From an uncultured Bacteroidales bacterium (GTDB lineage Bacteria; Bacteroidota; Bacteroidia; Bacteroidales; Bacteroidaceae), in the NCBI GenBank assembly GCA_902779315.1, contig CACZBC010000007.1, forward strand, positions 1 to 57,080: DNA of 57,080 nt. The letters run 5' to 3'. A program made the position numbers and the translations under genes. Position 1 is the stretch's first letter, and each line of letters starts with the position of its first letter. Positions 8,089 through 52,787 of this stretch are shown here, piece after piece. Under the pieces are notes generated by a model. The model searched no databases. It saw nothing but the letters and a program-made list of their open reading frames with translations, and was not told where the DNA came from.

Positions 8089-8243
8089 GTGTCAAAGTGT
8101 CAAGTGTCAAAGTGTCAAAAACGTTTTAGAAGTGTAGATTCATCTCATTTAGTAATAAATATATATTATATATTTATTACTAAATGCCCCCTCACCCCCA
8201 ACCGAAATTGAAAATGACACTTTGACACTTGACACTTTGACAC
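8089..8243. repeat. nested palindromic element with TGTCA repeats and an AT-rich core
   Basis: The outer arms are a perfect 29-bp inverted repeat (8089-8117 and 8215-8243), each arm made of four GTGTCA-type repeats at alternating 8- and 7-bp spacing (GTGTCAAA, GTGTCAA, GTGTCAAA, GTGTCA). Inside is a second, perfect 19-bp inverted repeat (ATTTAGTAATAAATATATA at 8147-8165, mirrored at 8167-8185, one central base). No reading frame spans it. A related architecture lies at 52898-53049. Confidence 0.8.
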
Positions 8244-8321: not shown

Positions 8322-8775
8322 AAGAGACAGTCTCTTCGCATAGAAACAGGGCCCGTTTCTCTGCAAGAGCTGGCGCTCAAGATTCCGCTGCGAGAACAGG
8401 CTACGCTGATTTCGTCGACTTCTGTCACGACTCGGCCAAACAAGTAAACTTGATGGCGCTCGCTGCTCCATCAGTTCGGCAAATTTGAAAGCTAGCTCTC
8501 ATTTTGCACTCGGCTTGCACTGTCCTTGAAGCAAGATTTAAGAGACAGAGTCTCTTAACAGTGAAAAGCGGCCATTTTCCTGTCAAGAGCTGAAGCTAAA
8601 AAATCCAATGCGCGCGTGAATCAAAGAGACGAAGTTCTCAGTAGTGAAAACGGCCATTTCGCTGCCAGGAACCGAGGCTCAGAAATCAACAGCGCGCGTG
8701 AATCAAAGAGACGAAGTTCTCAGCATCGAAACCGGCCATTTCGCTGCCAGGAACTGAGGCTCTGGGATTCAAAAA
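8322..8775 (+). repeat. degenerate tandem repeats of about 82 bp with conserved hairpins
   Basis: Four related units begin at 8322, 8540, 8624 and 8706. The last two are almost identical and 82 bp apart; the second is 84 bp before the third; the first is separated by about 135 bp of unrelated sequence. Each unit begins with a small hairpin (AAGAGAC-A-GTCTCTT, AAGAGAC-AGA-GTCTCTT, then weaker GAGA/TCTC), followed by a GAAA...TTTC stem around a GGCC-containing loop and a GAGC/GCTC-type stem. The spacings of 82 and 84 bp are not both multiples of three and the frames do not match between units, so this is not a repeat protein. Confidence 0.65.
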
Positions 8776-8817
8776 CAGAGAGGTGCGCCCTTAGGCTGCA
8801 GACAAGGGCAAACAATG

Positions 8818-8883
8818 CACTGTTGAAGTGCAATCTTAACACGTTAAAGTGGCCAATTTAACACGTTAAGTTCCGCAACGAAG
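8818..8883 (+). repeat. 22-bp tandem intergenic repeats, array 1
   Basis: Three 22-bp units start at 8818, 8840 and 8862 (CACTGTTGAAGTGC, CACGTTAAAGTGGC, CACGTTAAGTTCCGC). The array ends 4 bp before the 3' end of folC. It belongs to the family seen at 15179, 20619, 39980, 46615 and 52719. Confidence 0.65.
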
Positions 8884-8887
8884 CACG

Positions 8888-10165
8888 CTATGTTGTCAAA
8901 TTCAAGTAACTCAGCAAATCGGCCACAATGAAGGTGCTGCCACCGATGTAAATGATGTCTTCGGCTGTGGCGTTCTGCTTGGCCGCCTGGTAGGCAGAGG
9001 GAACATCGGGGTAGGTGGTGAATTGGAATTGGGAAACCGATAGCGCCTTTTTTGCGAGTTCTTCTGCAGGCATAGCCCGTTGCACAGAGGCTTGGGTGAA
9101 GTAGTAGACCGCGTCCTTCGGCATCATGCTCAGCACGGTTCCCACATCCTTGTCGCTGACCATTCCGAAGACGAGATGCAGACGTTTGTGGGGTAGGGAA
9201 GCAAGGTGGCGGAAGATGTACTGGAGTCCGCCTACGTTGTGGGCTGTGTCGCAGATTGTGAGGGGTTTCTTGGAAAGCGTTTGCCAACGTCCCATCAGTC
9301 CGGTCATCTTGACGACGTCCCTGAATCCGCGCTTGACGGCGATGTCGCTTATCTCTATGCCCCTTTCGCGAAGCAGACCGACGGAGGTGAGGATGGTCCG
9401 TTGGTTCTTCTCCTGGCAAAGGCCGGTCAACGCGGGCTTAAAGTCACTCCCCCCAAGGGGGAGCTGGAGGGGGCTTTCTTCTGCAAATACGATATGAGCT
9501 CCCACTTCTTTTGCTTTGTTCTCAAAGACGGCTTTGACCTCGGGATTGACGTTCTCGCCGATGCAGACGGGAATGCCCGGCTTGATGATGCCGGCCTTCT
9601 CCGAGGCTATCTTCGGCAGTGTGTCGCCCAGGAACTGGATGTGGTCGAAGCTGATGTTGGTGATGACACTCAGTTCCGGTGTGATGATGTTTGTGCAGTC
9701 GAGTCTGCCTCCCAGTCCGACTTCGATGACGGCAAAGTCCACCTTCTGCTCGGCAAAATACTGGAATGCAAGCGCTGTGGCAAGTTCGAAGAAGGAGAAA
9801 CCAACCTCCGAATTTTGAATTTTGAATTTATTATTTTTGAATTCTTTGACAAAGTCAACTACTCGCTTCTTGCTTATCATCTTGCCGTTCACACGAATCC
9901 GTTCGCGGAAGTCCACCAGATGGGGGCTTGTATAAAGTCCCACACGATAGCCCTGTGCCTGCAGAATGGCTGCAAGGGTGTGACTGACGGAGCCTTTGCC
10001 GTTCGTGCCGCCGACGTGAATGGTGCGATACTGGCGATGCGGATGGCCGTAATGCTCGTCAAGGGAAAGCGTGCCTGCAAGCCCCTCCTTATACGCAGCT
10101 GCCCCCACATTCTGAAACATAGGGGCAGAGTCGAACAAGTATTGAATTGCTAATTCATAATTCAT
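8888..10165 (-). CDS. folC: bifunctional dihydrofolate/folylpolyglutamate synthase
   Basis: 425 residues, normal for FolC. The enzyme joins glutamate to dihydropteroate and extends polyglutamate tails on folates. The P-loop GGTNGKGS is at residues 52-59, followed by SHTLAAILQAQGYRVGLYTSPHL and the FRERIRVNG segment of the Mur-ligase fold. The central ATP/Mg region has FAVIEVGLGGRLDCTN and ITNISFDHIQFLGDT. The C-terminal glutamate-ligase domain has CDTAHNVGG. It lies 67 bp after dnaJ and probably shares its transcript. The start codon is embedded in AATTATG-type heptamers that offer ATGs in several frames; the first in-frame ATG joined to the FolC sequence is used. Confidence 0.93.
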   Translation of the reverse strand: MNYELAIQYLFDSAPMFQNVGAAAYKEGLAGTLSLDEHYGHPHRQYRTIHVGGTNGKGSVSHTLAAILQAQGYRVGLYTSPHLVDFRERIRVNGKMISKKRVVDFVKEFKNNKFKIQNSEVGFSFFELATALAFQYFAEQKVDFAVIEVGLGGRLDCTNIITPELSVITNISFDHIQFLGDTLPKIASEKAGIIKPGIPVCIGENVNPEVKAVFENKAKEVGAHIVFAEESPLQLPLGGSDFKPALTGLCQEKNQRTILTSVGLLRERGIEISDIAVKRGFRDVVKMTGLMGRWQTLSKKPLTICDTAHNVGGLQYIFRHLASLPHKRLHLVFGMVSDKDVGTVLSMMPKDAVYYFTQASVQRAMPAEELAKKALSVSQFQFTTYPDVPSAYQAAKQNATAEDIIYIGGSTFIVADLLSYLNLTT

Positions 10166-10184
10166 AATTCACAATTCATAATTC
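10152..10184. repeat. 7-bp tandem repeat over the folC start
   Basis: AATTCAT, AATTCAT, AATTCAC, AATTCAT and a partial unit in direct succession. On the minus strand this gives an ATG about every 7 bases, overlapping the folC start codon. Confidence 0.8.
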
Positions 10185-14611: not shown

Positions 14612-14639
14612 AGTTCATAGTTCATAGTTCACAGTTCAT
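14612..14639. repeat. 7-bp tandem repeat beside the glucosaminidase promoter
   Basis: Four units: AGTTCAT, AGTTCAT, AGTTCAC, AGTTCAT. They lie between the divergent promoters of the glucosaminidase gene and cdd. Confidence 0.8.
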
Positions 14640-14649
14640 AATTATTTCG

Positions 14650-14679: not shown

Positions 14680-15150
14680 ATGAAAGAGCATAAGATAGAG
14701 TCTGTTTTCCACCTCTGTGAGCCAAGTGAACTGAACAAGGAGGAACGCGAGCTGGTCGATGCAGCAAAGCGGGCCACGAAAGGCAGCTATGCCCCCTTCT
14801 CGAAGTTCAAGGTCGGAGCAGCTGTGCGTCTGGAGAGTGGAAGGATTGTGGTTGGAGCCAATCAGGAGAATGCGGCTTATCCGAGCGGACTTTGTGCCGA
14901 GCGGACTGCGCTCTTTGCAGCTGGAGCGCAATATCCTGACGAAGCGGTTGTGGCTTTGGCCATAGCGGCCAGGAAGGGCAGGCGTTTCACGGCAGAACCC
15001 ATTCCGCCTTGTGGAGCTTGCCGTCAGGTCATCAGTGGTGTGGAAGACCGTCACGGAAAGGCCATTCGCATCTTTCTCTATGGTTCGGACGGCATAGTCG
15101 TTTGTGACGGGATAACCCCGCTCTTACCCTTCAGGTTCTCCGAGTTCTGA
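14680..15150 (+). CDS. cdd: cytidine deaminase
   Basis: 156 residues. Converts cytidine or deoxycytidine to uridine or deoxyuridine in pyrimidine salvage, in the cytoplasm. The substrate loop YAPFSKFKVGAAV is followed by the zinc site GLCAERTALF (Cys ligand and catalytic Glu) and PPCGACRQV (two Cys ligands), spaced as in tetrameric zinc-type deaminases. It is slightly longer at the N terminus than the typical 130-residue enzyme (extra about 20 residues). It is transcribed alone. Downstream are a weak hairpin (15152-15167) and a 22-bp repeat array. Confidence 0.95.
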   Translation: MKEHKIESVFHLCEPSELNKEERELVDAAKRATKGSYAPFSKFKVGAAVRLESGRIVVGANQENAAYPSGLCAERTALFAAGAQYPDEAVVALAIAARKGRRFTAEPIPPCGACRQVISGVEDRHGKAIRIFLYGSDGIVVCDGITPLLPFRFSEF

Positions 15151-15178: not shown

Positions 15179-15266
15179 ACGTGGGACAATTGCAATCGTA
15201 TAGTGTTACGTTTGCAATTTAATAGTGTTACGTTGGCGATTTACTAGTGTGAAGTTTGCGAATGAC
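15179..15266 (+). repeat. 22-bp tandem intergenic repeats, array 2
   Basis: Four 22-bp units start at 15179, 15201, 15223 and 15245. Units 2-4 begin TAGTGTTACGTTTGC, TAGTGTTACGTTGGC and TAGTGTGAAGTTTGC. The array lies between the convergent 3' ends of cdd and the PorE-like gene. Confidence 0.8.
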
Positions 15267-15301: not shown

Positions 15302-17650
15302 TTACAACTGCTCTTGCTCATCCTCGCTCTTCTCGACTTTCTCTGGAATCTTCGGAGTTTCCTTTGCGGGTTCGTCCGATTTCTTGATGTCGTCAGACTT
15401 CTTTATGTCGGAAGATTTTTTCTGCGTATTAGCTGCAGCTTCCCTCTTTTCGGGCCTTTGTGGCCTCTCTGGCTTTGAGGGCTTACTCGGCTTCTCGGCA
15501 ACTTCCGTCTTTCCTTCGCCTTCAATCTTCTCGGACTTTTCTGTATTTGCCCCAACTGTTCCTCCTGTTTCGCCAGCCGTTCCACCACTCATCTCGTCAC
15601 CCGACTCTCCGACTATCTTTTCGTCTACAGCGGATTGAACGCTGTCGGTAAGTTCCTTCTTGACGCTTTTCGATGTCGAATCGAAGAGCTTGTAGGTGGT
15701 GCGCAAGACTTTGAACTCGGTTCTGCGGTTCAGCGAATGGCAGATTTCCTGCTTCTCTTCGTCCTCGAGAGCCGTGATGAACGCTTCCGTCAAAGTGTCG
15801 CCTTCGTTGAGGAATTCGTAGGTGGCGGCAATTCGCTTCGTCACAATCTTCGGACGCTTCTCGCCATAACCCTTCGGAGAAAGGCGGAGGCTGTCGATTC
15901 CGTGAGTTTGGAGGTAGTTCACCACGCTTTCTGCACGCCTTTGCGAGAGCTTCTCGTTGTACTCGTCCTTACCTCGGAAATCACAATGTGAGGCCAGTTC
16001 GATGGTGACGTTGGGATTCTCGTTCAAGAGGACTACGAGGCTGTCGAGCGCAACTTTGGAACTGTCCAGGAGGACTGCGGAATCGAACTCGTAGAAGATG
16101 TTGCGGATGAGCACAGGATTCTCTATGCTGGCCAAGGGGAACTGTAACGTGAATTCTTGGCTCACGCTACTTGTGTCTACGCTAAGTTCCTCTTTATGAT
16201 TGAGATAGCCTTTGCAAGTTCCCAGGAAGACATAGTTGACCTTCGGCTTCACTTCCTGCTCGAAACTGCCGTCACCTCGAACGCTAAGCTTCAGGTAGGT
16301 TCCATCGTCGCCAACCATATATACAAGTCCTTCAGGCAACTCGTAGCCGTCCTTCTCGTAAACCCAACCCTTGACGGTCTGAATGACCTCAGGATGCTCG
16401 AAACGCATGATGTGGTCCCAACCTCTTGCGTCACCTCTGTTCGTGCAGAAATAGCCACGATTGTGCAAGCCCTCGAAAGTCATTCCGAAGTCGTCTCCGC
16501 TGGAGTTCATGGGGTACTTCAGGTTCTCGAGCGTCCAATCTCCCAGGCTGTCTTGAACAGCTTTGATGATGTCCAAACCGCCCATACCTACGTGGCCGTT
16601 ACTTGAGAAATAGAAGTCTCCGTTGGGACGGAACGCAGGGAACATCTCGTCGCCAGGCGTATTGATGGGCCATCCAGCATTCTCCACACCACCCAGCCCG
16701 TGGTCGGTCAAAGCAATCTTCCAAATGTCGAAGCCGCCTTGTCCGCCTGGCATATCGCTTGTGAAGTAGAGCCAATTCCCATCCGGACTGACGGCAGGAT
16801 GAGCATAACTGGAGAGTGTGTCTTTCGAGATTTGCAGCAGTTGTGGCTTACTCCAAGCTGCATCACTACGGGAACTGGTGTAGATTTGGGCAAAGCGGGG
16901 ATAGTCTGCGTCATAAGTGCAAACAGTCAGGTACATCGTTTTGCCGTCAGGAGAGAAGCAACAAGCACCTTCCTCGTATTCGCTATTCAGGTCGCCCTCT
17001 ACAGTTTCAACAGGTTCCCACTTGCCTTTATCGTCCTTCTTCGTGAAGAAAATGTCTGCGCTCTTGGTGCCCGTAACGCCACTTATCTCGTTACCTTTAG
17101 CGTCATTTCTGGTGCTGGTAAAGTAGAGCATATCGCTATCATCACCCAAAAGAGCAGGACTGAAGTCGCTTCTTCTGCTGGTCAGTATCGGTTCTTTCTT
17201 GATGCTGTAAAGCGAGAAGGCGTTCTTCCACTTCGGTGCAAGTTCGCATCCCTTTAACCCATTGAGTGCCAATGTGTCATTCGGTACTTTCTCGAGGAAG
17301 GCTTCATATGCTTTGACGGCACTCTTGTAGTCGCCGTTCTTCTGATGAAGTTGGCCAAGATAGAGTAGAGCCATCGAGTCGGGATAACCATAACGGACTG
17401 AGTTCTGATAGGCTCCGATGGCCTTTGCCGTATAGTTGATGCGACGATAGCATTGTGCCATCTTCCAAGCTCGCTGTCCTCGCTTGTCCTTGTCCTTCGT
17501 CTGGGTGCGTGAATAAGCCTTCTTGTATTCGGCTGCAGCATCGAAATACTCGCCGATAGCATAGAACTGGTCGCCCTTCTTGACGTGAACTTCAGGCGTA
17601 CAAGCTGCTACAAGAAGCGAGAGAAGAATATATCGTAGAAGCGTCTTCAT
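15302..17650 (-). CDS. porE: PorE-like type IX secretion lipoprotein (TPR, beta-propeller, OmpA domain)
   Basis: 782 residues. Lipoprotein signal: LLVAAC, with Cys17 as the lipid site. Tetratricopeptide-like helices span about 25-145 (GEYFDAAAEYKKAYS, NGDYKSAVKAYEAFLEK). A PD40/WD40-like propeller spans about 155-390 (repeats such as ACCFSPDGKTMYLTV and PAVSPDGNWLYFTSD). A short carboxypeptidase-regulatory-like domain lies near 410-480. An OmpA C-terminal peptidoglycan-binding domain follows, with NVTIELASHCDFRG and LSQRRAESVVNYL. This order matches PorE of Porphyromonas gingivalis, which anchors the type IX secretion system to peptidoglycan. A Lys/Glu/Pro-rich tail of about 90 residues at the C terminus is extra and low-complexity. 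It lies 42 bp after topB with no visible promoter, so it is probably co-transcribed. Confidence 0.8.
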   Translation of the reverse strand: MKTLLRYILLSLLVAACTPEVHVKKGDQFYAIGEYFDAAAEYKKAYSRTQTKDKDKRGQRAWKMAQCYRRINYTAKAIGAYQNSVRYGYPDSMALLYLGQLHQKNGDYKSAVKAYEAFLEKVPNDTLALNGLKGCELAPKWKNAFSLYSIKKEPILTSRRSDFSPALLGDDSDMLYFTSTRNDAKGNEISGVTGTKSADIFFTKKDDKGKWEPVETVEGDLNSEYEEGACCFSPDGKTMYLTVCTYDADYPRFAQIYTSSRSDAAWSKPQLLQISKDTLSSYAHPAVSPDGNWLYFTSDMPGGQGGFDIWKIALTDHGLGGVENAGWPINTPGDEMFPAFRPNGDFYFSSNGHVGMGGLDIIKAVQDSLGDWTLENLKYPMNSSGDDFGMTFEGLHNRGYFCTNRGDARGWDHIMRFEHPEVIQTVKGWVYEKDGYELPEGLVYMVGDDGTYLKLSVRGDGSFEQEVKPKVNYVFLGTCKGYLNHKEELSVDTSSVSQEFTLQFPLASIENPVLIRNIFYEFDSAVLLDSSKVALDSLVVLLNENPNVTIELASHCDFRGKDEYNEKLSQRRAESVVNYLQTHGIDSLRLSPKGYGEKRPKIVTKRIAATYEFLNEGDTLTEAFITALEDEEKQEICHSLNRRTEFKVLRTTYKLFDSTSKSVKKELTDSVQSAVDEKIVGESGDEMSGGTAGETGGTVGANTEKSEKIEGEGKTEVAEKPSKPSKPERPQRPEKREAAANTQKKSSDIKKSDDIKKSDEPAKETPKIPEKVEKSEDEQEQL

Positions 17651-19615: not shown

Positions 19616-19654
19616 AATTTACGATTTGACTATTTACGATTTACGATTTCTGTG

Positions 19655-19662
19655 CAAAGATA
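19655..19662 (-). promoter_or_regulatory. -7 promoter element (TATCTTTG) of topB
   Basis: TATCTTTG on the minus strand, 39 nt before the topB ATG. Degenerate 7-bp repeats (ATTTACG type, 19617-19649) fill the leader. Confidence 0.7.
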
Positions 19663-19670
19663 CAAATAAT

Positions 19671-19705
19671 TTTTCACTTTTCACTTTTCAATTTTCAATT
19701 TTTTT
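19671..19705. repeat. 7-bp tandem repeat beside the glycosyltransferase promoter
   Basis: TTTTCAC twice, TTTTCAA twice, then a T-run of the same length, directly upstream of the TACCTTTG at 19708. Confidence 0.75.
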
Positions 19706-19707: not shown

Positions 19708-19715
19708 TACCTTTG
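19708..19715 (+). promoter_or_regulatory. -7 promoter element (TACCTTTG), near-leaderless start
   Basis: TACCTTTG on the plus strand, with only 8 nt between it and the glycosyltransferase ATG. The expected transcription start falls one or two bases before the start codon. Confidence 0.75.
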
Positions 19716-19723
19716 TGCCTGTT

Positions 19724-20587
19724 ATGGAGCCAATCATTTCGTTCATCGTCACCTATCACAACGAGCCGGAATCCTTTCTGCAGGCTTGTTTGGAGAGCAT
19801 CCAGGCCCTTCCTCTTCGCGAGGAAGAAGTGGAAATCCTGGTTGTGGACGACGGTAGTGAGGTGCTCCCGACCTTTGCCGGAAAAGCGGGAATCCGTTAT
19901 ATCCGACAGGAACAGGCCGGACTTTCTGTGGCCCGAAACAAGGGAATCAGGTATTCTCAGGGGCAATATCTGCAGTTTGTTGATGCTGACGATTATATTC
20001 TCCCGGCCGTTTACGAGAAGGTTCTCGAGCAAATCAGGGACGGCAATCCGGATTTGGTCCTCTTCAAGATGACGAAAAAAGCCTCGAAAGCCTCGAAATG
20101 TACCTCGAAGACCACTTCCGGACCACACTTCCTTCAGCATCGCAACCTTCGGGCAGCTGCTTGGGGGTATGCTTTCAAGCGTGAGATACTGGGCGATTTG
20201 CGATTCTATCCAGGCATTTTGCACGAGGATGAACTCTTCACTCCGCAGATTTTCTTGAGGGCAAACACTCTGGTTGACCTTGATGCAAAAGCATATTTCT
20301 ATCGTCAGCACGAAGGCACAATCACGCACTCGAAATCGCTCGATAAAGTTCGTAAACGCCTGGATGATATCCACTTTGTTCTTAGGGAGTTACAAGCTTT
20401 GGATAATCCTTTGCTTAAACGCAGGATAAGACAGCTCACGCTCGACTATTTGCAGCGGGTTTGGACCTTGACTCATAGCCCTCGAGAACTTCGTCGTCGC
20501 AAGAAGGAACTGCGGAAAGAAGGCTTCCTTCCTTTGCCTGTCCGTTTCTATTCGCTGCGTTATTTCCTGGCAAGTTTGGTCTGGTAG
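19724..20587 (+). CDS. family 2 glycosyltransferase
   Basis: 287 residues from the ATG at 19724; a GTG at 19715 is rejected because it lies inside the promoter element. GT-A fold: ISFIVTYHNEPESFLQACLES, then the nucleotide-binding VVDDGSE. AGLSVARNKGIRYSQGQYLQFVDADD follows, where DADD supplies the metal-binding DxD. Such enzymes transfer a sugar from a nucleotide donor to glycans of the cell surface; the donor and acceptor cannot be read from sequence. The C-terminal third is basic and helical (RELRRRKKELRKEG), suggesting peripheral membrane contact. It stands alone, not in a polysaccharide cluster. A 22-bp repeat array lies downstream. Confidence 0.88.
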   Translation: MEPIISFIVTYHNEPESFLQACLESIQALPLREEEVEILVVDDGSEVLPTFAGKAGIRYIRQEQAGLSVARNKGIRYSQGQYLQFVDADDYILPAVYEKVLEQIRDGNPDLVLFKMTKKASKASKCTSKTTSGPHFLQHRNLRAAAWGYAFKREILGDLRFYPGILHEDELFTPQIFLRANTLVDLDAKAYFYRQHEGTITHSKSLDKVRKRLDDIHFVLRELQALDNPLLKRRIRQLTLDYLQRVWTLTHSPRELRRRKKELRKEGFLPLPVRFYSLRYFLASLVW

Positions 20588-20618
20588 GAAAACATCGCGT
20601 AGTTAAAACGAAAACTTC

Positions 20619-20794
20619 ACGTTTGAAGTTGGCCAACAACTAGTGTGACGATTGGCATTTACTAGTGTGAAGTTTGGCATTTACTAGTGTGAAGTTTGCA
20701 AACAACTAGTGTTACGTTTGCATTTGTATAGTGTTACGTTTGTATTTGTATAGTGTTACGATTGCATTTGTATAGTGTTTCGTTGGGGTTTTAC
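20619..20794 (+). repeat. 22-bp tandem intergenic repeats, array 3 (longest)
   Basis: Eight consecutive 22-bp units without spacers start at 20619 and then every 22 bp. The seven from 20641 to 20773 all begin TAGTGT; most continue (T/G)A(C/A)GTTTGC and end in ATTTGTA or ATTTAC. The three middle units (20707, 20729, 20751) differ from each other by one or two bases. The array lies between the glycosyltransferase and lepA, about 50 bp upstream of the lepA promoter. Confidence 0.9.
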
Positions 20795-26457: not shown

Positions 26458-26482
26458 AGAATGGGGAAATGATAAATGAAGT

Positions 26483-26510
26483 ATTAAGAATTAAGAATTA
26501 AGAATGAAGA
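26483..26510. repeat. 7-bp tandem repeat carrying the M23 peptidase start codon
   Basis: ATTAAGA three times, then ATGAAGA. The fourth unit is the start of the peptidase frame (ATG at 26504). Confidence 0.85.
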
Positions 26511-27151
26511 ATCTCTATTCATATAACGTTATCTTTCTGTTCATTGCGCTATGTTCAATGTTCAATGTTCAATGTTCAATGGTTTTCGCTCAGGACGAAA
26601 CGCCTGACATCGACGAGTGGCAGGTAATGCGTGTGGAAGCGGCAAAAGACCCCTTTGCCAATCACGACCAGTTCACGATAAACTTCGCCAATTATACAGT
26701 CGAGGAGTGGTGCTATCCGCTTCCCGGAGCCAAGGTATGCAGTCCCTATGGCGGTTCGCGGCATCATGGAGGAACTGACTTGCAAACTTTTGCCGGCGAC
26801 ACAACCAGAGCTGCTTTCCCGGGCGAAGTCATTCTGTCGGGCCCTTACTATGCCTACGGAAACTGCGTCATCCTTCGTCACGCAAACGGCTTGGAGACGA
26901 TGTATAGCCATCATTCGCGCAATCTGGTCAAGGTGGGGCAGTGGTTGCAGGCAGGCGATCCCGTGGGTTTGGAGGGCCATACAGGCCGTGCGACAGGCGA
27001 CCATCTTCATTTCGAGACACGCGTGCGTGGCCGTTCGTTCGATTCCTCTCGCATTTTCAATCACGCAAACCACAGCCTTATCCGCCAGATATTCGTTGTC
27101 ACCAAGCAGCAGAACGGCGCCCTGAAATTCACCTCCGCCAAAGTCGAGTAA
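26504..27151 (+). CDS. exported M23 family metallopeptidase
   Basis: 215 residues. A signal peptide of about 29 residues (MKNLYSYNVIFLFIALCSMF, cleaved near VFAQ) precedes an M23/LytM domain: zinc-binding HHGGTDLQ (His and Asp), VILRHANGLETMYSH, and GDHLHFETRV with the second HxH site. Such enzymes cut peptide cross-links of peptidoglycan, or regulate amidases when inactive; here all metal ligands are present. It is the last gene of the lepA run. Both the start codon and the signal peptide are made partly of 7-bp tandem repeats (26483-26510 and 26554-26581), so loss or gain of one unit in the second would shift the frame. Confidence 0.88.
   Translation: MKNLYSYNVIFLFIALCSMFNVQCSMVFAQDETPDIDEWQVMRVEAAKDPFANHDQFTINFANYTVEEWCYPLPGAKVCSPYGGSRHHGGTDLQTFAGDTTRAAFPGEVILSGPYYAYGNCVILRHANGLETMYSHHSRNLVKVGQWLQAGDPVGLEGHTGRATGDHLHFETRVRGRSFDSSRIFNHANHSLIRQIFVVTKQQNGALKFTSAKVE
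26554..26581. repeat. 7-bp tandem repeat inside the M23 signal peptide
   Basis: Four perfect copies of TTCAATG, encoding the end of the signal peptide. 28 bp is not a multiple of three, so a change of one unit is a frameshift. Confidence 0.9.
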
Positions 27152-31368: not shown

Positions 31369-31403
31369 AGTTAAGAGTGAAGAGTTAAGAGTGAAGAATT
31401 AAA
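31369..31403. repeat. 7-bp tandem repeat over the transporter stop and valS leader
   Basis: AGTTAAG, AGTGAAG, AGTTAAG, AGTGAAG, AATTAAA. On the minus strand it encodes the last residues and the stop of the transporter gene and ends just before the valS ATG. Confidence 0.8.
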
Positions 31404-34083: not shown

Positions 34084-34118
34084 AACTATGAACTATGAAT
34101 TACGAATTATGAATTGCG
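34084..34118. repeat. 7-bp tandem repeat between permease stop and ATPase start
   Basis: AACTATG, AACTATG, AATTACG, AATTATG, AATTGCG. It spans the permease stop codon (34107-34109) and ends at the ATPase ATG (34081-34083). Confidence 0.8.
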
Positions 34119-37156: not shown

Positions 37157-39658
37157 TTATCTAAGGTTATCCATTATCATCATTAACTGTTCTTCGCTTA
37201 CACAAAGCACTTCGCGGGGCTTGCTGCCTTTCGCAGGACCTACGATGCCAGCCTTTTCGAGCTGATCCATCAAGCGTCCTGCACGATTGTAACCAATCGC
37301 GAACTTGCGCTGAATCATGCTTGTGCTGCCGTTTTGCTCGCTAACAATCATACGAGCTGCATCCTCGAACATCGGATCGAGGTGTGTCATATCCACTTCT
37401 CCCAAGCCGCTATCTTCGTCGCCTTCAAGTGGAACTTCCGGCAAGAGATAGGGCGAGGTGTAACTTTGTTGCTTAGCAATATAATGCACAATGTCCTCGA
37501 GCTCGTTTGTATCGATGAATGCACATTGAATTCGAACGGGTTCCGAGCCTGTCATCAAGAGCATATCGCCTTTTCCGACGAGTTGGTTTGCTCCAGTTCG
37601 GTCTAGGATTGTCTTACTGTCGACGCCTGTAGTTACCTTGAAGGCCATACGTGCTGGGAAGTTTGCCTTGATGGTACCTGTAATGATGTTGGCTGTGGGG
37701 CGTTGTGTGGCGATAATCATATGGATGCCGACTGCTCGAGCAAGTTGCGCGATACGAGCGATGGGAAGTTCTATTTCCTTGCCTGCCGTCATGATGAGGT
37801 CGCCATACTCGTCGATAACCACAACTATATAGGGCATAAACCTGTGCCCATTTTGTGGATTCAGCTGGCGTTCGCGGAACTTTTCATTGTATTCCTTGAC
37901 ATTCCTTGCATGTGCTTTCTTGAGCAGATCATAGCGTTGGTCCATTTCGAGGCAAAGGCTCTTGAGTGTCTGAATCACTTTGTTGACGTCCGTAATGATG
38001 GGCTCTTCTGTGTCTTCGTTACCTTCAACTTGTGCCAGGAAATGGTTGACTATGGGAGCATAAAGGTTGAACTCGACTTTCTTGGGGTCGATCATGACCA
38101 GTTTCAACTCGGCTGGATGCTTCTTATATAGTAAAGAAGTGATGATGACATTCAGGCCGACAGACTTACCCTGACCTGTTGCACCAGCTACAAGAAGGTG
38201 CGGCATCTTCGTGAGGTCCGCTATGAAGACCTCGTTGGTGATGGTCTTTCCGAGAGCCATAGGCAGCTCGTAATCTGTTTCTTGGAACTTACGGCTGTTC
38301 AGGATGCTTTCCATCGAGACCATTTGGGGCTTGAGGTTGGGCACTTCTATGCCGATGGTTCCTTTGCCAGGAATGGGTGCGATGATTCGGATGCCTAATG
38401 CACTGAGGCTCAGAGCAATGTCGTCTTCGAGGTTTCGAATCGTGCTGATACGAATGCCAGGAGCGGGCGTGATTTCGTAGAGCGTGATTGTGGGGCCGAT
38501 TGTGGCTTTTGTATTATCGAGGATTTCGACTCGGAAGTTGCTCAGAACCGTTTTGATGCGGTTCTTGTTGTTGCGCTGCTCCTCCATATCGATAGCATTC
38601 GTGGTGTTATCATAATGGGTGAGGAGGTCGATGGTGGGATACTTGTAGTTCTCCAAGTCGAGCTTCGGATCGTAAGGCTCCAATGCGCGTCCGTCAGAGA
38701 GGTTAGCCTTCTCTGGATCTTGACCCACCACCACAGTGATATTATCCTCGTCGTTCGACTCATCCAGACCTTTCAGGGGAGCCAACGGATCTTCTGCAAA
38801 GTCAATGGTAGTCGCAGTTTGAGCGGCTTCGTCACTGAAGGGAATGCGAGGCTCTTCATCCTCTTTCGGCTCTTCCTGCTTGCATTCGTCCTCGCTGTCG
38901 GGCATCAAGGGATAAGTCACTTCTGGCTCTTCCTCCTGTTCTTCCACTTCGTCGGACTCCTCTTCCTTCTTCTTTCGGATGAGAAGATGACGGATCCAAG
39001 TGATGGCTTCGTCGCTGAGATAGAAGAGATAGAGTAGGGCGGAAAGGATGAAGATGAGCAGCGTGCCGAGGCCTCCAACTTTGCTCTGCAAGAAGTTCAG
39101 TTCGTTCTGACCAATCATGCCGCCCCAAATGATATAAGTATTTTGGGCACCAGGGAAATAACGCACAATGTAAGCGGCAAAGGCAGAAGCCCAAGCCATG
39201 ATTATCATGCAGTTAAGGAACCAAAGATGAAGTCTCACTTTAGCCAATCCCATGATGCGAATGCTGGCTGCAAGCATTAGGATGGGGATGAGTATACTGG
39301 AGACTCCGAAGGTGTTATCCATTAGCCAATGTGCCACTTCATAGCCCCAACGGCCCAACCAGTTTGCCGCTGTGTAGGATTCACTCGTGACGTACTTCTG
39401 GTCTTCAGCACCTGTGAAGACATGCGAGACGAGCGCTATGAGGATTGCCAACGAGAGAATGGCGAGAACGGCGCCCCATACGAAACGCAGGTTGTCACCG
39501 TGCTCAGCCCTTTTGTTAGGGGCAATTTCGTCCTGATCCGCTATGTTCGAGCGGAACCAGCTTAGCGAGCGGGCCCAAGAAGACTGGTTCTTCTTCTTTC
39601 GTCTGGCAGGCGTCTTGCTCGCTGGTTTATATTGTCTTACGCTTTTCTTTGCGTCCAT
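37157..39658 (-). CDS. ftsK: DNA translocase FtsK
   Basis: 833 residues. Four N-terminal membrane helices (about 60-215) anchor it at the division septum. An acidic linker (225-300, many Glu/Asp) is followed by the motor: VPNLKPQMVSMESILNS, Walker A GATGQGKS (492-499), Walker B YIVVVIDEYGDLIM, and TQRPTANIITGTIKANFPAR. The C-terminal gamma winged helix (MIQRKFAIGYNRAGRLMDQ) reads oriented DNA motifs. FtsK pumps the chromosome terminus and activates XerCD at dif. It heads the eight-gene run down to valS, with its own TACCTTTG promoter. Confidence 0.96.
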   Translation of the reverse strand: MDAKKSVRQYKPASKTPARRKKKNQSSWARSLSWFRSNIADQDEIAPNKRAEHGDNLRFVWGAVLAILSLAILIALVSHVFTGAEDQKYVTSESYTAANWLGRWGYEVAHWLMDNTFGVSSILIPILMLAASIRIMGLAKVRLHLWFLNCMIIMAWASAFAAYIVRYFPGAQNTYIIWGGMIGQNELNFLQSKVGGLGTLLIFILSALLYLFYLSDEAITWIRHLLIRKKKEEESDEVEEQEEEPEVTYPLMPDSEDECKQEEPKEDEEPRIPFSDEAAQTATTIDFAEDPLAPLKGLDESNDEDNITVVVGQDPEKANLSDGRALEPYDPKLDLENYKYPTIDLLTHYDNTTNAIDMEEQRNNKNRIKTVLSNFRVEILDNTKATIGPTITLYEITPAPGIRISTIRNLEDDIALSLSALGIRIIAPIPGKGTIGIEVPNLKPQMVSMESILNSRKFQETDYELPMALGKTITNEVFIADLTKMPHLLVAGATGQGKSVGLNVIITSLLYKKHPAELKLVMIDPKKVEFNLYAPIVNHFLAQVEGNEDTEEPIITDVNKVIQTLKSLCLEMDQRYDLLKKAHARNVKEYNEKFRERQLNPQNGHRFMPYIVVVIDEYGDLIMTAGKEIELPIARIAQLARAVGIHMIIATQRPTANIITGTIKANFPARMAFKVTTGVDSKTILDRTGANQLVGKGDMLLMTGSEPVRIQCAFIDTNELEDIVHYIAKQQSYTSPYLLPEVPLEGDEDSGLGEVDMTHLDPMFEDAARMIVSEQNGSTSMIQRKFAIGYNRAGRLMDQLEKAGIVGPAKGSKPREVLCVSEEQLMMIMDNLR

Positions 39659-39705: not shown

Positions 39706-39979
39706 CGAAAAAAATAGGAATTAAATGGTATGAAACCTGAATATTTTAAGCAAATTTACCATAATCGGTATTCCATTTTAGAGTTTGAAACAAACCGAAT
39801 TGGAGAAAAATGTAAAGAATTTTTCAATAGTTTAAGAGGTACTGACTTTGGGCTCTCAAGTGCCTGTTTCATGTTGAAGAACCTTTCCCCTTACTGATTG
39901 TTCACCCAGAAAATAGGGTTTGAGACAAGTTTTGTACTTCTTTTGTAACTCGCTTATAATGAATGGGTTGTATTTGTCA

Positions 39980-40111
39980 GGTTTCAAGTTTGAAATTTAG
40001 GCTAGTGAAGATTGTAATCATCACGTTTGAAGTTTGCATTTTTAACGTTTGAAGTTTGCCATCGTAACACTATATGTTTGCCGATTTAACACGCCAACTT
40101 TGCCAACTTGG
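39980..40111 (+). repeat. 22-bp tandem intergenic repeats, array 4
   Basis: Six units of 22 bp, at 39980, 40002, 40024, 40046, 40068 and 40090. The third and fourth begin CGTTTGAAGTTTGC; the second begins CTAGTGAAGATTG. The array lies in the 641-bp gap between divergent ftsK and mfd. The stretch from 40112 to the mfd promoter shows nothing else. Confidence 0.75.
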
Positions 40112-40276
40112 TTAAGGTAGTTTTCCTCTTATCAATTTTATGTCGGAAAACTAACTGCTTTATGCCGGCGGAAATGTCGTGAATTTTCCACCCGAATGAC
40201 TCTTGAAATCCGTAATTGTCGAGTTTTAGTTGAGAAGAAAAACAAAGATTTCTTTTGTTTTTCGCTAGCTTATTTG

Positions 40277-40284
40277 TACCTTTG
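40277..40284 (+). promoter_or_regulatory. -7 promoter element (TACCTTTG) of mfd
   Basis: TACCTTTG on the plus strand, with a TTTTG (-33) motif at 40253-40257, 19-nt spacer. The mfd ATG follows after 15 nt. Confidence 0.8.
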
Positions 40285-40299
40285 CAAAGTTTTAAAACG

Positions 40300-43200
40300 A
40301 TGGAGATTCAGAAACTGCTGAGCCTTTTTGCCAGACATCCAGGCGTGAAAGCTCTCGCCAAAGTGCTGCAGAAAGACTCTGGAACGGCCATTCAACTAGC
40401 TGGACTTCAAGGAAGTTCGGCTGCTCTTGTTTTCGCTTCGCTTGCCGAAAAGGCTCCCGAAGTGCTGAATGTTCCGTACCTTTTCGTGCTCGACGATGAG
40501 GAAGAGGCGGGCTATTTCTACCACGATCTAACGCGTTTCCTCGGCGATGAACAAGTCCTCTTCTTCCCAAGCTCGTATAAAAGGGCCATCAAGTTCGGCC
40601 AACGAAGTGCTGGACAGGAAATCCTTCGGACCGAAGTCCTGAGCCGACTCTCGTCTGGAAGCCTTCCGCTCTTTGTCGTAACGCATCCGCAGGCACTTTC
40701 CGAGCTTGTGGTCACGAAGCAGAAACTCAGCGAACAAACCCTCAGCCTCAGTGTAGGGGAACGGGTGGATATCATGTTTATTCAGGAGACTTTGCTCAGT
40801 TTCGGCTTCAACAAGACTGACTACGTTTACGAACCTGGGCAGTTTGCAGTTCGAGGAAGCATCATCGATGTCTATTCCTTCTCGCACGAACTTCCTTATC
40901 GTATCGATTTCTTCGGAGACGAAGTGGACAGTATCCGAACCTTCGAGGTACACAGTCAGCTCAGTCGAGACCGCCAACAAAGCATCACTATCGTGCCTGA
41001 AATGGACGGAAAGGACCTCAGCAGAGAGAGTTTCCTCACTTTCCTGCCACAAAACACCTTGCTCATCACGAAGGACTTGTTGTTCCTCTGCGAAAGTGTT
41101 GAGCAGATATATAATGAAGGTTTCAGCAGGTCGGCCATTACCGTACAACAGGAAGAAGCCTCCGAAGACTTGTCGGCGAAGGAAATGCTGGCTGATCCGG
41201 AAGAGTTTAAGAAACAGATAGTTGGCTTCCACAGAGTTGAGCTAAAAGCACATCCGCAAAGGGAAGGAAAGGAAGGGGCTCTGATTGAGTTCCGTACTCA
41301 CCCGCAACCCGTCTTCCACAAGAACTTCGACTTGCTCATCTCGGCTTTCCAAAAGCTTCAGGACAACGGCACAGACCTCTTCATTCTGGCTGACAGCAGG
41401 AAGCAGACGGACCGCCTGGAGAGCATCTTTCACGATAAGGAAACGGGCATTCAGTTCACGCCTGTCGACCAAGCTCTGCATGCAGGTTTCATCGATGACG
41501 ACCTGAATGTGGCCATCTTTACTGACCACCAGATCTTCGACCGCTTCCATCGTTACAATCTTCGCAGCGATAAAGCTACTGGAGGCAAAGTTGCGCTGAC
41601 TCTCAAGGAGTTGCAACAGTTCGAGATAGGCGATTATGTCGTCCATATTGATTATGGAGTGGGGCGTTTCGGGGGATTGGTCAGCATGCAGAATGGCGGC
41701 CAAATGCAGGAAGTTATCAAGATTACGTATTCCGGAAACGATAATGTCTACGTCTCCATTCATTCCTTGCACAAGGTTTCCAAGTACAAGGGCCGGGAAG
41801 GTGAACCGCCTCGCATCAGCAAATTAGGCACAGGAGCTTGGGAGCGGATGAAAGAAAGGACGAAGAAGAAGATTAAGGATATTGCCCGAGACCTCATTCT
41901 CCTTTACTCTCGTCGTCGAGAGGAAAAAGGCTTTGCATTCAGTCGCGACAGCTTCATGCAACATGAGCTCGAGGCAAGTTTCCTCTATGAAGATACGCCC
42001 GACCAACTGAAAGCCACCCAAGACGTCAAGTCGGATATGGAAAGGCAAAGGCCGATGGATAGGCTCGTCTGCGGCGATGTTGGCTTCGGCAAAACGGAAG
42101 TGGCAGTCAGAGCGGCTTTCAAGGCTTGTGTGGACAACAAGCAAGTCGCAGTTCTTGTGCCGACAACAGTCCTCGCATATCAGCATTTCCGCACTTTCCA
42201 GAGTCGCCTGAAAGACTTTCCTGTCAAGATAGAATACCTGACCAGAGCTCGTTCTCCACAACAGACGAAACAGGTTCTGGAGGGACTCAAAAACGGAACT
42301 GTAAACATTATCATCGGCACACATAAACTCATAGGCAAGAGTGTGCGTTTCAAGGACTTGGGTCTTCTCATCATAGACGAGGAGCAGAAGTTCGGCGTAT
42401 CGACCAAAGAGAAGCTCCGTCAACTGAAAACGAATGTCGACACCCTGACTTTGACGGCAACTCCGATACCTCGAACCTTGCAATTCTCTTTGATGGGAGC
42501 CCGCGATTTGAGTGTCATCCAAACGCCTCCGCCAAACCGTTATCCCATCCAGACACAGCTTTGTCAGTTCAGTGCCGAAGTTATTGCTGAAGCCATCGAG
42601 TTCGAAATGAGCCGAAGCGGACAAGTCTTCTTCGTCAACAACCGTATCAGCCAACTTCCCGAACTTGCAGAACTTGTCCGAAAGAACGTGCCAGATTGCC
42701 GAGTGGCAGTCGCTTACGGAAAGATGCCGCCAGAGGAACTCGAGAAGATTATGGTGGATTTCATGAACTACGACTACGATGTGCTCATCTCCACAACCAT
42801 CATCGAGAGCGGCCTCGACATTCCAAATGCCAACACCATCATCATCAACGGAGCCCACAACTTCGGCCTCTCGGACCTTCATCAAATGCGAGGAAGGGTG
42901 GGGCGTTCAAACAAAAAGGCATTCTGCTACCTTCTCGCTCCGCCTCTTTCTGTTCTGAACATCGATGCTCGACGCAGACTTCAAGCCATCGAGAACTTCA
43001 GCGACTTGGGAAGTGGCATTCATATCGCCATGCAGGACCTCGATATCCGAGGCGCAGGAAACTTGCTTGGAGCCGAACAAAGCGGCTTTATTGCCGACCT
43101 CGGATACGAGACGTATCAGAAGATACTGTCTCAAGCCGTCACAGAACTCCGTAATGATGAGTTCCACGAACTCTATGCGGAAGAGATGAAGGAAGGTAAA

Positions 43201-43704
43201 GTCGTTGAAAGCACTGAGGTGGTAGACGATTGCCAACTTGACAGCAACCTTCCCATGTACTTCAGCGAGGACTATGTTCCCACATCAAGCGAACGGATGC
43301 TCCTTTATCGGGAACTTGATTCGATGGAACGTGATGAAGATGTTGAAAGGTTCCGTCAACGGCTCATCGACCGCTTCGGAGCACTTCCAGACGAGGCAGA
43401 AGACCTGCTTAAAGTCGTTACGCTTCGTCGTTTAGGCAAGCATTTTGGCTGCGAACGGTTTGTCCTGAAGGCCGGACACGCAAGGATGTTCTTCGGTCCG
43501 GCAGACGATAATCCATTCTACGAAGGGCGAATCTTCGGTCAGGTCGTTTCCTTTGCGACTGCCAACGCCTATCGTTGTCACTTCAAACTCGACGGAAAAG
43601 GCAAGAGTCTCCTCATCGACGACGTCAATACCATTACTGAAGCCGTCGATATTCTAAAACAGATAAACAATATAAGCTATGCTAACGCATCTGACCATCA
43701 ATAA
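40300..43704 (+). CDS. mfd: transcription-repair coupling factor Mfd
   Basis: 1134 residues from the ATG at 40300 (MEIQKLLSLF); the open frame upstream of that contains the promoter and is excluded. The N-terminal UvrB-homology module has VLFFPSSYKRAIKFGQ and RGSIIDVYSFSHELPYRIDFFGDEVDSIR. The RNA-polymerase-binding domain has GDYVVHIDYGVGRF. The RecG-like translocase has Walker A CGDVGFGKTE (near residue 592), LLIIDEEQKFGV, TATPIPRTL, and HQMRGRVGRS. Mfd pushes stalled RNA polymerase off DNA and brings in UvrA. It overlaps recN by 26 bp. Confidence 0.96.
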   Translation: MEIQKLLSLFARHPGVKALAKVLQKDSGTAIQLAGLQGSSAALVFASLAEKAPEVLNVPYLFVLDDEEEAGYFYHDLTRFLGDEQVLFFPSSYKRAIKFGQRSAGQEILRTEVLSRLSSGSLPLFVVTHPQALSELVVTKQKLSEQTLSLSVGERVDIMFIQETLLSFGFNKTDYVYEPGQFAVRGSIIDVYSFSHELPYRIDFFGDEVDSIRTFEVHSQLSRDRQQSITIVPEMDGKDLSRESFLTFLPQNTLLITKDLLFLCESVEQIYNEGFSRSAITVQQEEASEDLSAKEMLADPEEFKKQIVGFHRVELKAHPQREGKEGALIEFRTHPQPVFHKNFDLLISAFQKLQDNGTDLFILADSRKQTDRLESIFHDKETGIQFTPVDQALHAGFIDDDLNVAIFTDHQIFDRFHRYNLRSDKATGGKVALTLKELQQFEIGDYVVHIDYGVGRFGGLVSMQNGGQMQEVIKITYSGNDNVYVSIHSLHKVSKYKGREGEPPRISKLGTGAWERMKERTKKKIKDIARDLILLYSRRREEKGFAFSRDSFMQHELEASFLYEDTPDQLKATQDVKSDMERQRPMDRLVCGDVGFGKTEVAVRAAFKACVDNKQVAVLVPTTVLAYQHFRTFQSRLKDFPVKIEYLTRARSPQQTKQVLEGLKNGTVNIIIGTHKLIGKSVRFKDLGLLIIDEEQKFGVSTKEKLRQLKTNVDTLTLTATPIPRTLQFSLMGARDLSVIQTPPPNRYPIQTQLCQFSAEVIAEAIEFEMSRSGQVFFVNNRISQLPELAELVRKNVPDCRVAVAYGKMPPEELEKIMVDFMNYDYDVLISTTIIESGLDIPNANTIIINGAHNFGLSDLHQMRGRVGRSNKKAFCYLLAPPLSVLNIDARRRLQAIENFSDLGSGIHIAMQDLDIRGAGNLLGAEQSGFIADLGYETYQKILSQAVTELRNDEFHELYAEEMKEGKVVESTEVVDDCQLDSNLPMYFSEDYVPTSSERMLLYRELDSMERDEDVERFRQRLIDRFGALPDEAEDLLKVVTLRRLGKHFGCERFVLKAGHARMFFGPADDNPFYEGRIFGQVVSFATANAYRCHFKLDGKGKSLLIDDVNTITEAVDILKQINNISYANASDHQ

Positions 43705-45358
43705 TTACGTTCTCATCGAATCGCTCGACATCGACTTTGCAGCCGGGTTCTCTGTTATGACAGGCGAAACCGGAGCAGGTAAATCCATTATCCTTGGAGC
43801 CTTAGGTCTGCTTACAGGAGGACGAGCTGATACTGGTAGCATCATGCCAGGAGCGGCCAAATGTACCGTAGAAGGCATTTTCAACATAGATGGTTACGAC
43901 TTGCAGAGTGTCTTCGAAGAGAATGAAATCGACTACGAACCAACGGAATGTATCCTTCGTCGTGAAGTCTCGTCGAACGGAAAGAGTCGTGCCTTCGTCA
44001 ATGATAGCCCAGTAAATGTTTCGGCGCTCCGTCAGATTGGACTTCGTTTGCTTGATATTCACTCCCAACATAGCAATCTGTTGCTCGAGAATCCTGCTTT
44101 CCAACTGGGTATTGTAGATACTGTTGCAGGACATTTTGATTTGCTTGGTCAGTATCGTGAGTGTTATGCTCGGATTGTCGAAACCAAGCGTCAACTCAAA
44201 GAACTCGAGGAGAATCTGGCAAAGCGGCAAAGTGATGAGGACTATCTTCGTTATCAACTCGACCAACTTGACGAGTTCAAACCTCAAGGAGGTGAAGACG
44301 AGGAACTTAAGCAGCAACAGAGCGCACTTTCTCATGCCGAGGATATAAAGATTTCGCTCTCCACGATAGATGCATTTCTAAATGGTGACGATAGCGAGAA
44401 TGGCATGGGAGCCATTGATGCATTACGGCGCTCGAGCCAAACCATGCAACAGATTGCTAGTGTTTATCCCGCAATAGAAGACTATTTGAGTCGTCTCGAA
44501 AGTGTTGTTATAGAAGTGAAAGATATTGCTGGAGACATTAATGGAATGGTTGAGGACATAGAGTATAACCCTGCTCGCCTACAACAAGTTACGGAACGAC
44601 TTGACCAGCTTTATTCTCTTGAGCAAAAGCATCATGTCGGTTCGTCTGATGAACTTATCGCTTTAGCAGAGGATATTCGTTCCCAGCTCGCTTTGTTGAC
44701 TGATTCCGAGGACAATATCAAGGAACTTCGAAAGCAAATAGAGGTGGAGACAGAACAGGCAAAGAAGCTTGCCGAAAAACTTTCTGCAGGTCGCTTGAAA
44801 GCGTCAAAGCAAGTTGAAAAGCTTGTCTCCGAGTCAATTACAGCAATGGATATGCCTGCAGCCATCTTCAAGGCAGACATAGAGAAAACAAATGAACTGC
44901 AACCCTCCGGAATGGATAATGCCACCTTCCTGTTCTCAGCGAATAAGAACATGACGCTCAGACCGTTAGCGGATGTGGCGAGTGGTGGCGAAATGTCAAG
45001 AGTGATGCTTGCCCTTAAAGCATTGACAAGCAAACAGATGAATCTGCCAACAATTATCTTCGACGAGATTGATACGGGCGTCAGCGGCAAGGTTGCAAGT
45101 TCGATGGCACAGATAATGGCACAGATGAGCAACGGTGGAAATCAGCAAGTCCTTGCCATCACTCACCTTCCACAGATTGCGGCAAAAGGCGATGCACACT
45201 ACTTCGTCTACAAAGAAGATGAAGGGACTCGCACTTTGACTCACATCAAACAACTAGACCAGGAAGGTCGCATTACAGAACTCGCTCACATGCTTTCCGG
45301 CAACATGGTAACCGAAGCTGCCAGGGAGAATGCCCGTCAACTTCTACAAGGAAAATGA
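43679..45358 (+). CDS. recN: DNA repair protein RecN
   Basis: 559 residues, SMC-like. Walker A GETGAGKS (29-36), LDIHSQHSNLLL (Q-loop region), a long coiled coil about 150-370, ABC signature VASGGEMSRVMLALKAL, Walker B PTIIFDEIDTGVSG, and AITHLPQIAAKGD. RecN bridges DNA ends at double-strand breaks. Its ATG lies inside the 3' end of mfd and its stop overlaps the tilS start by 4 bp, so the three are one transcript. Confidence 0.96.
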   Translation: MLTHLTINNYVLIESLDIDFAAGFSVMTGETGAGKSIILGALGLLTGGRADTGSIMPGAAKCTVEGIFNIDGYDLQSVFEENEIDYEPTECILRREVSSNGKSRAFVNDSPVNVSALRQIGLRLLDIHSQHSNLLLENPAFQLGIVDTVAGHFDLLGQYRECYARIVETKRQLKELEENLAKRQSDEDYLRYQLDQLDEFKPQGGEDEELKQQQSALSHAEDIKISLSTIDAFLNGDDSENGMGAIDALRRSSQTMQQIASVYPAIEDYLSRLESVVIEVKDIAGDINGMVEDIEYNPARLQQVTERLDQLYSLEQKHHVGSSDELIALAEDIRSQLALLTDSEDNIKELRKQIEVETEQAKKLAEKLSAGRLKASKQVEKLVSESITAMDMPAAIFKADIEKTNELQPSGMDNATFLFSANKNMTLRPLADVASGGEMSRVMLALKALTSKQMNLPTIIFDEIDTGVSGKVASSMAQIMAQMSNGGNQQVLAITHLPQIAAKGDAHYFVYKEDEGTRTLTHIKQLDQEGRITELAHMLSGNMVTEAARENARQLLQGK

Positions 45359-46608: not shown

Positions 46609-46614
46609 ACGTGA

Positions 46615-50725: not shown

Positions 50726-50757
50726 ATGATAAAATGAAAGAATGAAGATATGAAAAA
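50726..50757. repeat. 8-bp tandem repeat carrying the GH99/71-like start codon
   Basis: ATGATAAA, ATGAAAGA, ATGAAGAT, ATGAAAAA. The last unit is the start of the hydrolase gene (50750). A T-rich 8-bp series continues in the signal peptide (50761-50792). Confidence 0.7.
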
Positions 50758-52784: not shown

Positions 52785-52787
52785 GCA

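Follow-up and report, generated by a model that had tools for sequence, protein, structure and literature searches.

Tandem arrays of 22-bp dyad-symmetric units at operon ends of a Bacteroidaceae genome and upstream of HU-HIG genes

Spacerless tandem arrays of 22-bp units sit mostly at the 3′ ends of operons in the genome of an uncultured Bacteroidales bacterium. In related genomes the letters of the unit are replaced, but the period and often the positions of the arrays are kept, and about half of the usable HU-HIG genes have an array directly upstream. We consider it rather probable that the arrays are tandem operators of HU-HIG proteins, used in autoregulation and possibly as boundaries at operon ends. 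The window analyzed here is a stretch of 57,080 nucleotides, contig C7 of the source genome (G000), which is a 2.83-Mb draft in 107 contigs that is 84% complete.

Arrays in the source genome and their position relative to genes

A first-pass annotation of the window had described six spacerless arrays with a period of 22 bp and had called for a genome-wide profile search. A unit profile was iterated on the window and 367 kb from four further contigs of the source genome (424 kb in all). The scan recovered exactly those six arrays of at least three units in the window and 50 such arrays in the 424 kb, bearing out the 22-bp period genome-wide. The units are contiguous, the period is exactly 22 bp, and the density is about one array per 8.5 kb, which extrapolates to about 330 arrays in the full genome if the remainder is alike. 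TRF alone called period 22 at four of the six window arrays. A CRISPR array was rejected because the units are contiguous at 22 bp and lack unique spacers.

In a lag test, windows of 44 bases were merged into clusters if they had 30 or more identities at a given lag. Lag 22 gave 42 clusters in the 424 kb, and the other lags between 16 and 32 averaged 0.88 and never exceeded 3, indicating that the arrays did not arise by chance. When the whole source genome was searched for TAGTGTTACGTTTGC with at most one mismatch, 97 forward and 92 reverse matches were found, and the backwards control gave 0 and 0.

The arrays were found in 18 convergent, 28 tandem and 4 divergent contexts, whereas intergenic regions of at least 80 bp numbered 28, 68 and 29, respectively (convergent versus divergent placement, p = 1e-4). 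A stricter count over all adjacent gene pairs placed arrays in 18/42 convergent, 27/227 tandem and 3/40 divergent pairs, with 2 arrays within predicted ORFs. The edge of the array was at most 40 bp from a stop codon in 34 of the 50 cases, and certain convergent gaps consist almost wholly of array. Five of the six window arrays had been assigned to gene 3′ ends, and this held with a simple ORF caller; the exception is 39979-40110 (Table 1).

Table 1. The six arrays of the window, their gene context and the state of the orthologous position (slot) in relatives. F and R denote forward and reverse boxes.
Position	Units	Box orientation	Gene context	Orthologous slot in relatives	Identified by
8817-8904	4	reverse	overlaps the 3′ end of folC (8888-10165, minus)	folC orthologue with array in G008, without in G076	profile scan, dyad phase
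15179-15266	4	forward	flanked by convergent cytidine deaminase (14680-15150, plus) and PorE-like T9SS gene (15302-17650, minus)	array after one of the two flanking genes in G008, G027, G035; none in G036, G076	
20597-20794	9	forward	between glycosyltransferase-like gene (19715-20587, plus) and lepA (20878, plus); starts 9 bp past the stop codon of the former, ends 83 bp ahead of lepA	filled in G008, G036, G035, G076; empty in G027	
39979-40110	6	mixed, FFRR	between divergent ftsK-like gene (37157-39658, minus) and mfd (40255-43704, plus)	G008 also with array between ftsK-like gene and mfd	
46592-46679	4	mixed, FRF	overlaps the end of tilS (45355-46608, plus); convergent with gene 46700-48820 (minus)	array here too diverged for the lag test; slot with lag-22 array in G008, G035, G036	
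52698-52785	4	forward	121 bp past the stop codon of gene 50750-52576 (plus)	filled with other units in G027, G035; not in G076	

A role of the arrays as substitutes for intrinsic terminators was unsupported, since terminator-like hairpins were equally common with or without an array: 15/33 convergent 3′ ends with an array versus 12/23 without, and 7/25 tandem 3′ ends with an array versus 8/43 without. Loss of Rho was likewise rejected as an explanation, because rho was present in 38 of 41 genomes including the source genome, and the other three are 61-62% complete.

Some local repeats were noted in passing. The 120-bp right flanks of two arrays lying 7 kb apart on another contig of the source genome (C3:18892-19001 and C3:26210-26319) are 93% identical and share a terminator-like hairpin, a local duplication. 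In the window, an 82-bp unit is repeated 2.7 times at 8540-8762, beside the array at 8817, and GTGTCAAA repeats and their inverted copy TGACACTT lie about 100 bp apart at 8089-8119 and 8215-8243.

Symmetry and orientation of the unit

Read in one phase, the unit of the source genome consists of a 6-bp box, a 6-bp half-site, the core TGCA and a second half-site. The boxes are TAGTGT, ACACTA, ACGTGT, ACACGT and near forms, with GT or AC at the center of 225 of 292 boxes; the first half-sites include GACGTT, TACGTT and GTAAAT, and the second AACGTC and ATTTAC. Box orientation switches from array to array and also from unit to unit inside an array, without loss of the 22-bp register.

All six window arrays had been read as pointing in the same direction, which had suggested an orientation to replication. 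Neither claim held. By box orientation, three of the six are forward, one is reverse and two are mixed, and over the whole source genome TAGTGTGACGTTTGC occurred 222 times forward and 206 times reverse (backwards control, 1 and 0). Both orientations, which the annotation had named as refuting evidence if they occurred equally within one replichore, were found inside single contigs and even single arrays, so polar sites oriented to replication are a reading to which we give practically no weight.

Because the profile drew on both strands and is thus symmetric by construction, dyad symmetry was tested by separate means. It exceeded that of column-shuffled versions of the same arrays in 114 of 128 arrays of the genus. 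The left and right halves are alike as a class, and within a unit they matched at 3.10 of 6 positions compared with 3.19 in shuffles (242 units). This lack of covariation between half-sites points to a two-fold symmetric protein site at the level of DNA and argues against an RNA stem. The first-pass suggestion of spaced protein-binding sites thus gained support from the 22-bp period, the dyad symmetry, the lack of half-site covariation and a candidate HU-like binder predicted from sequence.

The arrays could instead be RNA elements, namely 3′ UTR hairpins that terminate transcription or protect mRNA. The mean RNA fold z-score of -1.89 over both strands of 41 arrays, with 35% of the values under -2, is in line with this reading, as is the orientation in tandem contexts, where the majority orientation was that of the upstream gene in 19/28 cases (p = 0.087, a weak trend at most). 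However, the half-sites do not covary, orientation flips freely, Rho is present, terminator hairpins coexist with the arrays, and Rfam at the gathering score gave 0 matches within the window. We therefore regard an RNA element as very unlikely.

At array ends such as C2:45902, C3:70345 and C7:15266 of the source genome, the terminal boxes look mirror-imaged and cap-like by eye, with CCAGT/GTCGTT at the start and AACGAC/ACTGG at the end.

Unit sequences and array positions in relatives

The annotation had proposed a comparison with related Prevotella and had named absence from close relatives as a refuting observation. A link to Prevotella found no support in the named records with arrays of the source-genome type, which are MAGs: Bacteroidaceae bacterium RGIG9745 and RGIG10220, from yak omasum and rumen, and, with one locus, uncultured Bacteroidales RUG12173; these arrays were found in 38 stretches in total. 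Absence seemed borne out at the level of letters: a search for TAGTGTGACGTTTGC in 60 relatives gave matches in 4 (G005, 7; G059, 2; G022, 1; G033, 1). Both G005 loci that were read are arrays, and the two G059 matches (L054, L056) lie in apparent coding sequence outside any array. Among viral contigs, none carried an exact double unit of the source-genome type. The letter search alone suggested a species-private repeat, but the letter-free period test overturned this view by finding arrays in many relatives.

Across 28 genomes of the genus, the source genome among them, 1.97 Mb was tested, and lag 22 gave 128 clusters compared with 0-31 at other lags. At least one lag-22 cluster was found in 18 of the 28 genomes, most of the others being sampled at 20 kb or less. 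Abundance varied (0 in 100 kb of G015, 3 in 180 kb of G017, 20 in 160 kb of G012), and other Bacteroidales families gave 1 cluster in 271 kb (20 genomes, one stretch each, two of them all N). That lone cluster (G059 L203, 880-959) is either a chance match or a sign of a faint wider range. The letters of the unit differ by species: TAGTGTGACGTTTGC in G000, GGTTAACCATT in G012, CACGTGGGTAAAATG in G036, both GACGCGTCCCTATGGG and TTCATGAATATTC in G035, CGCCGCACGCGG in G027 and G076, and AAGACGCGCGTCTT in G001.

The same orthologous genes are followed by arrays of unrelated letters in G000 and G012. For tandem slots after orthologous genes, 8 were filled in both genomes, 2 in the source genome only, 1 in the relative only and 101 in neither (p = 8e-10). 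The slot pairs are not independent, several genomes having slots in common, and some of the gaps counted as tandem are too short for an array. The corresponding counts agreed with this, at 3, 1, 1 and 19 for mixed-context slots and 3, 2, 0 and 7 for a second mixed-context class. Convergent slots alone showed no significant conservation (6 in both, 3 and 3 in one only, 5 in neither; p = 0.35). Filtering by gap gave 22/29 versus 0/5, a comparison that is partly circular since arrays lengthen gaps. From one related species to another, these operon-end elements change their letters but often hold their places.

Adjacent units of a single array are commonly near-identical, resembling local duplication, as would be expected of neutral minisatellites that grow by slippage and have no function. 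Such a process would have to produce one period, 22, across the unrelated sequences of the genus, dyad symmetry in most of their arrays, and conserved slots. We consider it slightly less likely still than an RNA element.

BIMEs lie at gene 3′ ends and in arrays, as do the repeats described here. According to the part of the source consulted (PMC3733652), REP/BIME elements with RAYT are, like these arrays, numerous, short, dyad-symmetric, species-specific and intergenic. Unlike that system, the source genome has no RAYT or other Y1 transposase, and the arrays lack hairpin covariation, have a fixed 22-bp direct period and are linked to HU-HIG genes. A second likeness is to BrickBuilt of Porphyromonas gingivalis, also a member of the Bacteroidales, with spacerless tandem intergenic repeats of a 23-nt unit; as far as the cited excerpt describes it, BrickBuilt has 19 copies, a leader, a tail and terminal inverted repeats (PMC4596501). 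The arrays here differ in that they have no such flanks, number about 330 by extrapolation and have their letters replaced between species.

A mobile repeat of the REP/BIME or MITE kind, piling up at the 3′ ends of operons because insertions are nearly harmless there, would account for hundreds of intergenic copies with species-specific letters, and a 23-nt tandem repeat within a MITE of P. gingivalis is a precedent, again from the excerpt (PMC4596501). Against this, Y1 transposase (PF01797) was absent from G000, G008 and G012; overall it matched in 15/31 genomes, 5/19 within the genus (one strongly, G013) and 10/12 elsewhere. No common leader or tail was found (8 similar pairs among 4950 flank pairs), none of the 50 arrays had a 10-bp exact inverted repeat shared between its two flanks, and slots are conserved though letters are replaced. 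Mobility thus appears improbable as the origin of the arrays.

The TAACTGA heptamers of Beggiatoaceae, with 169 sets of tandem repeats in one genome, resemble the arrays as tandem intergenic repeats that were proposed to be protein-binding sites. They differ, in the portion of the report cited, in having a 7-bp unit placed mostly just upstream of start codons, in the proposed post-transcriptional action, and in the occurrence of the same heptamer in distant phyla (PMC4679880). Period-7 tandem repeats of varied heptamers also occur in the window (10151-10184, 14612-14640, 19617-19702, 26475-26581, 31369-31402, 34087-34115, 53447-53477 and 57044-57073), several of them directly at start codons and reminiscent of the TAACTGA repeats. 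In the 424 kb of the source genome, period-7 repeats were found within 60 nt upstream of 13/297 genes and within 60 nt downstream of 6/297; in the same scan, tandem periods of 5-11 other than 7 were found at 2 genes at most.

HU-HIG genes as candidate binder genes

Two of the seven source-genome arrays without a stop codon within 150 bp precede paralogous HU-HIG genes (HU-HIG being Pfam PF18291). We examined 90 HU-HIG loci and set aside 5 in G047, which belongs to another family, and 4 with scant upstream DNA, leaving 81 usable genes from 22 genomes, all strand-corrected. An array was found within 450 bp upstream in 44/81 genes, at a median distance of 72 bp from the start codon, and downstream in 1/81, compared with 83/1066 upstream and 124/1066 downstream for background genes. 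Lag 22 was the top lag in 54/81 HU-HIG upstream regions versus 66/500 random ones. When genes were matched by requiring an upstream gap of at least 150 bp, the contrast shrank but persisted, at 44/81 versus 71/295 within 450 bp (p = 5e-7) and 30/81 versus 24/295 within 110 bp (p = 2e-9). Background genes with a gap of at least 250 bp gave 55/181 (p = 3e-4) and 11/181 (p = 1e-9), respectively, against the same HU-HIG values. The other 37 of the 81 genes had no upstream array at the threshold, some of those in G008 and G012 having visibly degenerate ones, and an upstream array was found at 0/5 loci of G047.

All three HU-HIG genes of the source genome with enough upstream DNA have an array. In the array-poor genomes G014, G015 and G017 (5 clusters in 360 kb), 12 of 15 HU-HIG genes still carry one upstream, which suggests that the pairing of gene and array came first and predates the use of arrays at operon ends.

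Nineteen genomes of the genus had 2-19 PF18291 matches each, ordinary HU included. Of the 12 genomes from other families, 11 had 1-4 matches and G047, the exception, had 12. The HU-HIG protein on contig C4 of the source genome scored 70.3 bits and a G012 protein 74.5 bits against the curated Pfam cut-off of 26.2. An AlphaFold2 model of the source-genome protein (pLDDT 85.9, pTM 0.64) had as its best PDB match in Foldseek 4fmr, a Bacteroides DNA-binding protein (E = 1e-5), followed by HU and IHF chains (probability 1.00, E of 7e-4 and weaker); the predicted fold of the candidate binder is that of HU/IHF. Some paralogues have about 205-212 residues with an extra C-terminal stretch, and the Pfam description of PF18291 is of fusions between HU and wHTH, Ig or glycine-rich parts. 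Burroughs et al. in 2017 reportedly dealt with HU/IHF clades and named HU-HIG. In the open-access literature, a scope outside which that clade paper falls, we found no account of HU-HIG proteins that mentions cognate arrays in tandem, sites at operon ends or autoregulation, and we know of no tested function for these proteins.

We then compared arrays across genomes with those upstream of HU-HIG genes. Seventy of 108 genome-wide arrays were most similar to an HU-HIG upstream array of their own genome, compared with a chance expectation of 2-19% per genome, and 0/2000 label permutations reached the observed mean. The own-genome match was best in 34/40 arrays of G000, 19/20 of G012, 5/5 of G035, 3/3 of G036, 3/6 of G027, 2/4 of G016, 2/9 of G076, 1/3 of G017 and 1/1 of G001, so that G000 and G012 supply most of the 70; in G000 the margin is small (mean similarity 0.548 own versus 0.514 best other). 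It was never best in G008 (0/9), G002 (0/3), G014 (0/2), G077 (0/2) and G013 (0/1); for these genomes, as for G017 and G076, only part of the HU-HIG genes entered the comparison. Across genomes, arrays were also more alike where the HU-HIG proteins were more identical (Mantel r = 0.52, 0/2000), a correlation to which plain descent is expected to contribute.

Within a genome, the array family differs from one HU-HIG gene to another, and these families recur genome-wide. In G012, an GGTTAACC array precedes the L241 paralogue and an array of the CTGCAG type precedes L223, while a CACGTTAACTTGG-type array was seen by eye, below threshold, before L239. Both array families in the sampled stretches of G035 have an HU-HIG owner, and in G017 6/7 HU-HIG genes have arrays, with several unrelated units.

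The position of the arrays and this matching make HU-HIG proteins their probable binder, as judged from sequence. The arrays might instead be operators of other proteins, regulators that simply act on HU-HIG genes often. Since HU-HIG genes and arrays are linked by position and statistics only, there is some room for this alternative, but it would have to explain why the arrays of HU-HIG genes within a genome fall into different families, as in G017, and why array similarity follows HU-HIG protein identity. Moreover, among 29 gene rows with a 5′-side array and no stop codon within 150 bp, HU-HIG, ftsK and mfd were the only ones to recur by BLAST. We consider other regulators unlikely. As for other binder types, excerpts of a report on pTERF proteins in a ruminant-gut Clostridia MAG (PMC11417379) prompted a check for mTERF-like binders, which were rejected: 0/41 genomes had a match above the cut-off, and 2 weak matches lay below it. 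Modular repeat proteins yielded no convincing binder among 15 candidate ORFs.

Under the preferred reading, in which HU-HIG proteins bind the arrays, these proteins would be DNA-binding members of the HU/IHF fold that have multiplied in the genus, and each unit would be a pseudo-palindromic dimer site. A spacing of 22 bp corresponds to two helical turns, so adjacent dimers would lie on one face of the DNA, which they could coat cooperatively. Often, an HU-HIG gene would be autoregulated through its own array a few tens of bp before the start codon, and in the clade of the source genome the same code would also have been placed past the stop codons of many operons. Coated DNA at operon ends might then form a two-way boundary that stops or slows RNA polymerase; given the place and symmetry of the arrays, a function as transcription boundaries is conceivable and falls a little short of probable. 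With many weak units sharing an array, protein and sites could drift together, so that letters would differ among species and paralogues while period, dyad and slot are kept. ParR/parC and plasmid iterons are also helix-phased tandem sites bound by a cooperative protein; they differ in occupying one locus per replicon, compared with hundreds of operon ends here.

More tentatively, we propose that this lineage has made the HU fold into a self-regulating, sequence-specific family with private palindromic codes in 22-bp tandem arrays. Hundreds of operon-end boundaries would pass to a single paralogue at each takeover, so that all of these sites would acquire new letters between species and yet remain in their slots. 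HU is commonly taught as an architectural protein with almost no sense of sequence. To our knowledge neither HU nor IHF is known for fast-changing base-specific recognition, which counts against the HU-HIG reading. If the proposal is true, the system would parallel, in bacteria, the rapid co-evolution of chromatin proteins with satellites. HU-HIG would gain a concrete candidate target, single genomes would offer presumed cognate and non-cognate pairs, and it would become directly testable how a DNA-binding protein coevolves with hundreds of sites.

Two further features of the HU-HIG loci were noted. A gene of about 130 residues, with a start like M.RG..NCNPLNIRRVAG, lies downstream of HU-HIG on G000 C1 and C69, G012 L241 and G036 L302, and matched no Pfam family when scanned in 70-residue pieces. 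HU-HIG genes also lie at or near contig ends, close to the contig starts, in the source genome (C18, C30, C56) and in G008 (C16, C36, C44); near-identical copies may have broken the assembly, and the true copy number may be higher.
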